Part shown: positions 19,303 to 21,196 of the stretch, piece after piece
How positions within the stretch are numbered: position 1 is the first letter of the stretch
Layout of the letters: each line of letters begins with the position of its first letter
Assembly (NCBI GenBank): GCA_944326245.1
Contig: CALVDF010000004.1
Coordinates: 1 to 64,000, forward strand
Source of the DNA: an uncultured Bacteroidales bacterium
GTDB taxonomy: Bacteria > Bacteroidota > Bacteroidia > Bacteroidales > UBA932
Reading direction: 5' to 3'
DNA: 64,000 bases
Translations under genes and position numbers: made by a program
The notes under the pieces: generated by a model
The model's database searches: none
Seen by the model: the letters and a program-made list of their open reading frames with translations, nothing else
What the model was told of the DNA's origin: nothing

Positions 19303-19334
19303 CAAATGTAATTATTCAAATTAAATTATGCAAA
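19303..19334 (-). promoter_or_regulatory. Promoter of the AAA+ ATPase gene
   Basis: On the minus strand, TTTG (19331-19334) is followed by exactly 20 bases and TACATTTG (19303-19310), a full match to the Bacteroidetes consensus. The spacer and -33 box lie within the AT-rich inverted repeat. Confidence 0.7.
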
Positions 19335-19371
19335 TCGAATAATTTAAATTAAATAATTTATTTTGAATAAT
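19311..19371. repeat. AT-rich nested inverted repeat, copy A
   Basis: The outer arms ATTATTCAAA (19311-19320) and TTTGAATAAT (19362-19371) are perfect inverted copies, and inner arms AATTAT (19324-19329) and ATAATT (19339-19344) are nested inside. It begins five bases after the EamA stop codon and covers the promoter spacer of the ATPase gene. Copy B lies at 20376-20422. Confidence 0.65.
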
Positions 19372-19375
19372 GGAT

Positions 19376-20311
19376 TCATGCGGCTTTCTCCTTCTCAAGC
19401 TGTGCGCGGCTCTTGCTGGCGGTGACGAGCCAGACTCCTGTGAAGATGAGCAGGACAGCGAGGACTTTCACGAAGCTGAAGGTGTCGAGGCCGAGGTAGA
19501 TGGAGGCTGTGACCGAGACTATGGGCTGGATGTAGTTGTACATGCCGGCGACAGTGGGCCGCAGGGCCTTCTGTCCTACGACTACCAGGACATAGCATAG
19601 GAATGTGGCGAGGACCACGACGTAGAGGATGCCGCCTATATTGCCCCAGGTCAGGCCGGCCCAGTCAGTGGCGATCAGGTCGTGGTAGGAGAAGGGCAGA
19701 AGGCAGATGAAGGCATAGGTGAACATCCACTTCATGATGGTGAAGATGGAGTATTTGCTTACAAAATTCTTGAAAAGGACGAGGTAGGAGGCGTAGCTGA
19801 GCTGGGCGAAAAGGATCAGCAGGTCCCCGCCGATATTTGTAGTACTCCCGGCTGCTGCCGCCGCTGCATGACTGCCGCCGAGGATGAGCAGCAGGGCGCC
19901 GCCGGCTCCGAAAGCGATGCCGCAGACCTTCTTGCCGGTGATGGGCTCCTTGAGGAAGAATGCCGCCAATATCATTGCCCATAGCGGCATGCTGGTGGCT
20001 ATGATGGAGGCATCGGCAGGGGAGGTAAGGCTCACTCCGAAGACGTAGAGGCCCTGATTGAACACTATTGCCAGGAGGGAGGCCGCGAACAGCTTGATCA
20101 TGTCCCTCGGTTCTACCTTTTCCGGCTTCCGGAAGAGGGAGGCGACCCAGAAGAGCACCATTGCCCCGAATACCCGCAGGTCCGTGAGTACCAGCGGGGT
20201 GATGATACTTCCCGCCATGACTATTTTCGCCACCGGGGCCATCAGCCCCCAGATGCAGTTGGCCGCCAGCATCGCGCCGTGGCCTTTCCAGCTTATTTTC
20301 TCCATAGCCAT
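19376..20311 (-). CDS. EamA/DMT-family transporter
   Basis: A protein of about 311 residues with ten predicted hydrophobic segments in two EamA repeats (first starts ISWKGHGAMLAANCIWGLMAP; conserved LKEPITGKKVCGIAFGAGG near residue 110 and a second repeat with ALRPTVAGMYNYIQPIVS). Family members export small metabolites such as amino acids or nucleobases; the substrate is not readable. ATG at 20311 is chosen because a perfect -7 box ends 21 bases upstream. A damaged second copy of the same gene lies just upstream at 20425-20536. Confidence 0.85.
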   Translation of the reverse strand: MAMEKISWKGHGAMLAANCIWGLMAPVAKIVMAGSIITPLVLTDLRVFGAMVLFWVASLFRKPEKVEPRDMIKLFAASLLAIVFNQGLYVFGVSLTSPADASIIATSMPLWAMILAAFFLKEPITGKKVCGIAFGAGGALLLILGGSHAAAAAAGSTTNIGGDLLILFAQLSYASYLVLFKNFVSKYSIFTIMKWMFTYAFICLLPFSYHDLIATDWAGLTWGNIGGILYVVVLATFLCYVLVVVGQKALRPTVAGMYNYIQPIVSVTASIYLGLDTFSFVKVLAVLLIFTGVWLVTASKSRAQLEKEKAA

Positions 20312-20331
20312 TTGTGTAAGCAAAACGGCCG

Positions 20332-20339
20332 CAAAAGTA
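20332..20339 (-). promoter_or_regulatory. -7 box of the EamA gene
   Basis: Reads TACTTTTG on the minus strand, followed by CGGCCG. The same arrangement, with the box mutated to TACATATG, precedes the EamA relic. Confidence 0.55.
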
Positions 20340-20375
20340 ATTCAATTTTATGTGACTGACCACACCCCGTCTCAA

Positions 20376-20422
20376 ATTATTCAATCTGAATTATGCAAAT
20401 CAAATAATCCGAATTGAATAAT
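20376..20422. repeat. AT-rich inverted repeat, copy B
   Basis: Arms ATTATTCAA (20376-20384) and TTGAATAAT (20414-20422). Over 47 bases it matches the ATTATTC...AATAAT core of copy A at roughly four of five positions, with the shared centre AATTATGCAAATC. It sits just 3' of the EamA relic, as copy A sits 3' of the intact EamA gene. Confidence 0.6.
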
Positions 20423-20424
20423 CG

Positions 20425-20536
20425 CGGATAACAGGCACCTTGCTTCCGCACTGAAGGCTGTCCCGTCGACCTTCTTCCCGGTGACAGGTTCCTTGTGAAA
20501 TATTGCCGCGAGCATTTTCCAGCTTATTTTCTCCAT
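20425..20536 (-). pseudogene. Relic of a second EamA transporter gene
   Basis: The minus strand starts with the same seven codons as the intact neighbour (MEKISWK, identical in DNA over 20 bases), then jumps to MLAAIFHKEPVTGKKV, matching MILAAFFLKEPITGKKV about 100 residues further into the intact protein. About 100 codons were lost by internal deletion and everything after AFSAEA is gone. Even the upstream CGGCCG and a decayed -7 box are recognisable. The remnant could encode only about 40 residues and has no plausible transport function. Confidence 0.8.
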
Positions 20537-20575
20537 ATTTCTCAGTAAAATCGGCCGCATATGTACACTTTTTTC

Positions 20576-20583
20576 TAATTTTG
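20576..20583 (+). promoter_or_regulatory. -7 box of the small beta-barrel gene
   Basis: TAATTTTG, a perfect TAnnTTTG, 37 bases before the ATG at 20621. No clear -33 element. Confidence 0.45.
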
Positions 20584-20620: not shown

Positions 20621-21196
20621 ATGAAAACACACTTCGCCTGGCATGCGGCCTTGCGTGCCGCTATCGTTGTTATTATATTGCAGTTGTTGCCATTTACGGC
20701 TATGGGGCATCAAGCCGATGACCCGGTGCCGGAGAAGGAGAGGACACGCGGTGACTTTACGGCAAATATCAGTCTGGCCTTCCCGGTGTTCACCAGCGGA
20801 CCCGAGAAATTCGGCTACGAGGCGGTTGGGTTTGGATACACTTTCCTCAACAATAATCTGGAGGCGGGCATCAATCTCGGCGGCCTGGTCACCAAGGGCA
20901 CGATCTATACCCATTCGAAGATGAAAGGTATGGTGATGGGCACGGCCTATCTGTCCCTGCTTTTCGGAAACCAGACGGGCAGGCTCACCATCTGTCCTAC
21001 GGTGGAGGCCGGTGTGGGCCACGGCACCATCCATCAGGTCCCCGAGTCGACCAGAGCCGTGTTCGGTGTCGGCACGACGCTGCTCTACCGTCCTCTTAAA
21101 TGGTTTCATACGGGCATAGACCTCAAGTACGTATTCCTTTCCAACAGCGATAACCGCTGGCTGATGCTCGGCTTCAAGTTCGGAGTGGACTTTTAA
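20621..21196 (+). CDS. Small outer-membrane beta-barrel-like protein, unknown function
   Basis: A 191-residue protein with a hydrophobic N-terminal segment (about 8-30) consistent with a signal peptide. It then shows alternating polar/aromatic stretches typical of amphipathic beta strands (GYEAVGFGYTFLNNNLEAGI; WLMLGFKFGVDF) and ends in Phe, the usual final residue of outer-membrane barrels. I do not recognise a named family. It is preceded by its own promoter and followed 65 bases later by aspS, which also has its own promoter. Confidence 0.6.
   Translation: MKTHFAWHAALRAAIVVIILQLLPFTAMGHQADDPVPEKERTRGDFTANISLAFPVFTSGPEKFGYEAVGFGYTFLNNNLEAGINLGGLVTKGTIYTHSKMKGMVMGTAYLSLLFGNQTGRLTICPTVEAGVGHGTIHQVPESTRAVFGVGTTLLYRPLKWFHTGIDLKYVFLSNSDNRWLMLGFKFGVDF

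Follow-up and report, generated by a model that had tools for sequence, protein, structure and literature searches.

An intact EamA transporter gene in the 64,000-nucleotide stretch of Bacteroidales DNA analysed here (the window) has beside it a short piece of a second EamA gene, and an AT-rich repeat lies behind each of the two, which raises the question of where the broken copy came from and what the repeats are. The window lies on contig C4 of a genome of 2.49 Mb that is 97.7% complete (G000), and was compared with its relatives in a set of 19 genomes of the genus (about 39 Mb, labelled G000-G018). On the minus strand, coming from the aspS side, the order is the 191-aa ORF, the relic with its promoter, an array, a junction, the intact EamA gene, a second array, an ATPase gene of the PF01637 family and a gene which, from its sequence, we take to be dsbD (Table 1). 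The ATG at 20305 is used here as the start of the intact EamA gene because it is common to relatives, the mechanical ORF start (TTG, 20323) being further upstream. The 191-aa ORF had no match in Pfam or NCBIfam and has counterparts in some relatives, while being absent from others; by inspection, its divergent promoter overlaps the native promoter of the relic. A 370-codon frame separates EamA (or a fragment of it) from this counterpart in G009, G017, G012 and G013, and there is none in G000.

Table 1. Features at the EamA locus in the window, followed by features of relatives (positions within loci labelled L)
Feature	Position	Strand	Remarks
aspS	21217	+	beyond the 191-aa ORF as seen from the relic
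191-aa ORF ("OMP")	20621..21196	+	between relic and aspS
Native EamA promoter of relic	20537..20583	-	-7 box TACATATG in place of TACATTTG
EamA relic, A type	20430..20536	-	codons 1-7, 12-nt and 300-nt in-frame deletions, then KEPVTGKKV block
Relic array	20376..20422	-	four half-sites ATTAT/ATAAT, 14-nt phase; ATPase-type promoter array without ATPase
Junction and non-native upstream of intact EamA	20324..20375	-	carries TACTTTTG box
Intact EamA transporter, B type	19376..20305	-	PF00892, two stretches
ATPase promoter array	19311..19371	-	five half-sites, 14-nt phase; abuts ATPase -7 box TACATTTG
PF01637 ATPase, 377 aa	18151..19284	-	STAND/ORC-like NTPase core and predicted C-terminal winged helix
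370-codon frame	L041 2570-3679, L037 6184-7293, L038 5715-6824, L039 3022-4131		between EamA or fragment and 191-aa ORF counterpart
Second ATPase locus arrays	L217-L219, L224-L227		upstream of ATPase

An earlier note, made from the window's letters, had read the short piece as a second EamA copy decayed by internal deletion, and alignment bears this out, since each of three blocks of the relic outscored all 1000 dinucleotide shuffles. The first seven codons are identical as the note had said (22 nt, TATGGAGAAAATAAGCTGGAAA, at the start of both genes) and the KEPVTGKKV segment is kept, as an ungapped alignment of 62 nt at 74% (20448-20509 against 19905-19966), so that, with the aligned array stretches 20375-20422 and 19310-19357, similarity extends beyond the first 20 bases. 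The relic is longer than the 112 bases first allotted to it, as its coding remnants run from about 20430 to 20536 and its promoter on to 20583. Where the note had one internal deletion, there are two in the aligned part with G007 as reference (12 nt and 300 nt, both in frame, the longer flanked by two GCGGCC 6-mers), and the 3' half of EamA is absent as well. What is left is thus an EamA pseudogene made up of a promoter, seven codons and the KEPVTGKKV block, with an AT-rich array behind it as behind the intact gene; the pieces are homologous to EamA with parts missing, and correspond to no conserved gene among the 19 genomes. Its open frame, of 51 residues, extends into the array to 20381. By itself the relic is ordinary gene decay.

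The relic had been thought to be a tandem duplicate of the gene now next to it, with a decayed copy of that gene's -7 region, and neither idea fits its closest relatives. EamA lies directly beside aspS in G002, G003, G005, G007 and G016, with the upstream sequence TTAGAAAAAAGTxTACATTTGxGGCC and the -7 box TACATTTG; the relic has this aspS-side upstream with one change in the box (TACATATG), while the intact EamA gene in the window lacks it and has the box TACTTTTG. When the 19 genomes were searched at the DNA level, G007 matched both blocks of the relic better than any other sequence outside the window (90% over 83 nt for the promoter with start codons, 83% over 70 nt for the middle). The 5' block agrees with G007 at 69 of 80 bases, compared to 51 of 73 for the neighbouring intact gene, and the middle block at 60 of 79 compared to 51 of 79; at sites that split G007 from the intact gene, the relic sides with G007 by 15:1 and 11:2 respectively. 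When B-type genomes other than G000 stand in for the neighbour, the preference of the middle block for G007 is 8:2 or 8:3 (p 0.05-0.11). A tree built on 84 aligned coding bases, with the broken gene of G005 and the mosaic gene of G002 omitted, joined the relic to G007 with support of 100% and rejected it as sister of its own neighbour (AU p=0.007), while a position merely within the B group was not rejected at 5% (AU p=0.064). These comparisons show that the relic preserves, at the native promoter beside aspS, the 5' end of an A-type EamA gene together with a single block from its interior. As the base counts, the discriminating sites and the tree all point to G007, and the upstream is the native one, the relic appears to be the older resident.

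The intact gene is an unremarkable member of the EamA/drug-metabolite transporters (PF00892; 127.2 bits against a gathering cut-off of 28.2, with two EamA stretches), and the relic is left over from that gene too, but the history of its alleles is unusual. Four-fold-site distances of the intact EamA gene were 0.15-0.19 to the B-type genes of G003, G009, G013 and G016, compared to 0.33 to mosaic G002 and 0.41 to G007, and those of the ATPase were 0.11-0.13 to the B-type ATPases of G002, G009, G013, G015 and G016, compared to 0.34-0.35 to G011, G012 and G017. The same measure for ppk and ppx, between G000 and ten relatives, was 0.48-0.70. Because the divergence of the B block (0.11-0.19) is so far below this, intact EamA and its ATPase, which belong to a second allele type, were probably exchanged between species, and the intact block is the likely newcomer. 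Distances for aspS were also low (0.19-0.32), as were those for parts of dsbD, which suggests that exchange here may reach beyond the block; YqeY of G000 is closest to G007, and dsbD is closest to G011 and G007 (the latter compared over 36 sites). Some pairs of relatives are nearly alike elsewhere in the genus (ppk of G002 and G013, 0.07; ppx of G002 and G003, 0.06), suggesting that exchange goes beyond the EamA locus.

The intact gene has itself recombined, as its first 22 nt are A-like, and the EamA gene of G002 (L042 5017-5943) is an A/B mosaic whose first third is B and most of the rest A. Asking whether close relatives have two intact EamA genes or one, as the earlier note had suggested, gave a mixed answer: the gene is intact at the locus in 7 of the 19 genomes, but no genome among the 19 has both an A and a B block intact. 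It is broken or a fragment in five (broken in G005, a 3' fragment alone in G011, G012, G015 and G017), and seven, several of them incomplete, have no close match. Both G013 and G016 have an extra EamA 3' fragment. This spread of intact, mosaic, broken and fragmentary genes suggests that the locus is a site of repeated exchange and erosion. G007 has neither ATPase nor array at its EamA locus, and mosaic G002 is the only genome in which array and ATPase were seen behind an A-type 3' half. The source of the upstream of the intact gene (20324..20375) could be traced to no specific relative among the 19 genomes, which gave just short promoter-like matches, the best outside one being 33 nt in G002 (E 0.0005), by eye before a tRNA-like gene. 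As side observations, the broken gene of G005 (L044 5439-6163) lacks about 57 residues internally and its frame is interrupted near the start, with a short array and no ATPase behind it, and the extra fragments of G013 and G016 (L035 3627-3731, L036 8553-8654) are separated from the ATPase by a 565-codon frame.

Several histories could leave an A-type relic next to a B-type gene. If repeat and EamA had recently been duplicated in tandem in this lineage and one copy had then decayed, this would explain the identical 22-nt start and the array behind each copy; the relic is nearer to G007 in promoter, start and middle, so that its nearest relative is not the neighbouring copy, the tree with the two as sisters is rejected, and their upstreams have little in common beyond TACxTxTGCGGCCG, which together make such a duplication highly improbable. 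A and B might instead be old tandem paralogues that predate the split of the species and were kept differentially, with no exchange between species, an explanation that accounts for both types in one genome and with which the relic tree is also compatible. We consider this unlikely, since B-type EamA and ATPase genes are far more alike across species than ppk and ppx, since in G003 and G016 it is the B type that occupies the native promoter by aspS, as expected of alleles at one locus, and since the 5' B and 3' A arrangement of G002 is the reverse of what would result if tandem copies arranged as in G000 had simply undergone a deletion between them. That the relic still works, as a small gene or a regulatory RNA, is scarcely credible: it has kept what looks like a promoter and an open frame of 51 codons, and both of its deletions are in frame, but a DNA search of the 19 genomes found no match joining both of its blocks in the other 18, nor its short ORF as a conserved gene. 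Exchange beside an A-type resident remains the preferred history. Allelic exchange may leave pseudogene remnants, and here likewise two alleles diverge, one relative is a mosaic and several relatives have fragments; unlike the usual case, the old and new alleles stand in tandem and the old promoter has been kept.

What lies behind each EamA copy had been described as a related AT-rich palindrome. The two do align, but they are phased arrays of 5-nt half-sites rather than plain palindromes, built of ATTAT or ATAAT plus 9 nt with a period of 14 nt, and their orientation flips midway. The relic array differs from the other at 8 positions, all in spacers, with all four half-sites intact; such placement by chance has p 0.007, and p 0.10 for the 4 differences from the nearest relative (the G015 array), values that are indicative only as the half-sites were defined by their conservation. 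A 19-nt consensus allowing up to 3 mismatches matched 11 times in G000, 10 of these at the locus and one a single weak match elsewhere, so that the many dispersed copies of a mobile repeat are not seen. The exact pattern of three phased half-sites occurs in 13 of the 19 genomes as 19 distinct arrays (the reversed control pattern had 0 matches in the 19), and for 16 of these arrays the distance to a PF01637 gene downstream is no more than 90 bp. That leaves three: the relic array, an array in G013 (the ATPase of this genome is found on a different contig) and an array in G018 next to the counterpart of the 191-aa ORF; all three are at the EamA locus, the ATPase there having apparently been lost or displaced. 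An exact array accompanies 16 of the 17 ATPases of at least 52% identity, the 17th being that of G013, while more distant PF01637 matches in the genus (up to 41% identity) lack the exact pattern. Seven genomes have, at a different locus, a second ATPase (52-54% identical), and this too is preceded by an array of its own, with longer half-sites (TTATG/CATAA) and an unchanged 14-nt phase. Five distant ATPases of 24-26% identity (L220, L229, L221, L230, L231) appear on inspection to carry a long upstream palindrome in place of a 14-nt array.

The duplicated unit had been taken to be repeat plus EamA. Outside the genus, where 29 of the 69 EamA loci retrieved were scanned, 28 had no repeat and one had a single site with 4 mismatches; being absent there and recurrent before PF01637 ATPases, the repeat is not part of an EamA unit. 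As the relic array is of the ATPase type without an ATPase, the unit that was once doubled was probably EamA-array-ATPase, in two allele types.

The 14-nt phase extends well beyond the genus. We searched 295 genomes of the order, 93 of which had an ATPase match at E 1e-30, and used 89 ATPase upstreams of the approximately 147 matches besides those of G000 (counted by eye), 60 of the 89 having been fetched in a way that favoured full-length, high-ranking matches. Of the 89, 67 had a 6-mer recurring in the same orientation exactly 14 nt away, compared to 8.8 expected from shuffles, and 34 had one recurring at 28 nt (5.7 expected), while the neighbouring spacings of 13 and 15 nt gave 7 and 10. 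With one upstream holding Ns left out, the 14-nt repeat was found in 66 of 88 ATPase upstreams (and was absent, in its strict form, from 22), compared to 15 of 145 AT-rich controls and 5% of all 322 controls, any control overlapping an ATPase upstream having been removed. This control rate is an overestimate, as four loci (L049, L050, L052, L053) add to the 15 arrays that belong to the EamA locus itself; conversely, the controls were chosen at an AT content of at least 55% against an average of 74% in the ATPase upstreams, and the shuffles are the better control. After clustering, the repeat was present in 49 of 60 sequence clusters with 184 distinct 6-mers. A further 29 loci, mostly of other classes (24 from other parts of the phylum, 4 within the class and 1 from the order, L314, which duplicates L135 of the first set), yielded 12 that pass the strict test, and several others look phased by eye (uncounted).

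A different role for the repeats, as terminators, a mobile repeat or recombination sites with no connection to an ATPase operator, could be argued from their position between EamA and the next gene and from a unit number that ranges from 1 to 4. We find this very unlikely: the array of G000 runs up to the ATPase's -7 box, exact arrays in the 19 genomes are restricted to PF01637 upstreams or the EamA locus, the half-sites are fixed while the spacers change, and the phase recurs with so many different 6-mers. The arrays at PF01637 ATPases are, on their strong association, better regarded as candidate binding sites at the gene's own promoter. Array and protein also co-vary (Mantel r 0.47-0.52, 0 of 2000 permutations, on 22 non-redundant ATPases out of 35 aligned and 27 with a repeated core), but the AAA part, winged helix and recognition region do so about equally, so that the co-variation may reflect common descent and is no proof of specificity.

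The ATPase passes PF01637 (46.3 bits, gathering cut-off 33.2), a family which we take to belong to STAND and which was matched by all 35 aligned family members at E 0.01; MarR_2 was matched by 7 of the 35 and TrmB by one. An AlphaFold2 model built with 35 sequences (pLDDT 87.4) has an NTPase core followed by a C-terminal winged helix, assigned from how helices and strands succeed one another. Two archaeal ATPases of PF01637, 2qen (PABY2304) and 2fna (SSO1545), match this model over nearly its whole length (Z 25.7 with 331 of 377 residues aligned and Z 24.6 with 333 of 377, respectively; sequence matches E 7e-06 and E 0.00015), followed in the structural ranking by chains of NLR, archaeal Orc1/Cdc6 (bound to origin DNA), TnsC and CED-4. 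The core-then-winged-helix order and the matches to 2qen, 2fna, CED-4 and NLR place the modelled protein with the STAND type. MuB, clamp loaders and RuvB were also matched, but a shared fold with these and with TnsC shows no shared function. No role in defence was assigned, as PADLOC matches were weak (best E 0.00027, with no stretch passing alone).

Our preferred explanation, to which we give a probability of about 0.7, is that the relic of an A-type resident EamA gene lies beside an exchanged B-type EamA-array-ATPase block, and that the array is the operator of a self-regulating ATPase. In the ancestor, an A-type EamA gene would have been accompanied by an array and, probably, by an ATPase gene. 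Recombination with another species of the genus would then have brought in a B-type block beside the resident one, after which the resident ATPase would have been lost and the resident EamA eroded by deletions. The C-terminal winged helix of the STAND/ORC-like ATPase would bind the 14-bp-phased half-sites over its own promoter, with half-site sequence varying among ATPase lineages and the phase constant. The winged-helix ATPase most likely regulates itself, and in the simplest mode it would be an oligomeric autorepressor. We prefer repression because the G000 array covers the stretch directly upstream of the -7 box; relative to a TAnnTTTG box, the arrays of 47 scorable cases lie upstream in 30, over it in 10 and downstream in 7, and such variable positions in other genomes do not settle repression against activation.

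MalT, a STAND regulator, binds arrays of sites. It and mycobacterial IniR likewise combine an NTPase with a DNA-binding domain able to act on a promoter. In the published account of IniR (PMC5760070), its ATPase domain is described as like that of SSO1545 and the protein as binding the iniBAC promoter. IniR has a MalT-like middle domain and acts on iniBAC, whereas the ATPase here consists of NTPase and winged helix only and its arrays are at its own gene. The bacterial clade has a 14-nt-phased array in its own promoter, while 2qen and 2fna were compared by protein only. Archaeal Orc1/Cdc6 has the NTPase-winged-helix order in common with the ATPase (structural Z about 17-19), but the arrays here sit at the ATPase promoter. 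Among the matches listed in our literature search, which took in titles and the openings of abstracts with subscription journals thinly covered, no arrays were reported at PF01637 genes and no DNA target was described for the PF01637 ATPase family.

A remnant, then, can be the old resident and the intact gene the newcomer, but it is the phased arrays at the ATPase family that outweigh the relic as the part worth pursuing. These arrays provide a common ATPase family with a concrete candidate target in its own promoter, in which the 14-bp phase is invariant and the half-sites vary, so that for proteins with the build of NLR and ORC ATPases the binding of DNA, the geometry of the oligomer and its specificity all become open to direct test. 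More tentatively, and with somewhat less than even weight, there may be a Bacteroidota-wide clade of minimal STAND/ORC-like ATPases, each gene with a private operator array whose phase is fixed at 14 bp and whose half-sites drift with the protein, the phase being read by an ATPase oligomer; the orphan array of a lost ATPase, just upstream of the incoming EamA gene, may then have put EamA under ATPase control. About 35 nt separate the orphan array from the -7-like box of the intact gene downstream, a position from which the array could influence that gene. In seven genomes (L329-L332, L334-L336) a distant family has its ATPase match inside open frames of 1300-1900 codons, either a fusion or an open-frame artefact.
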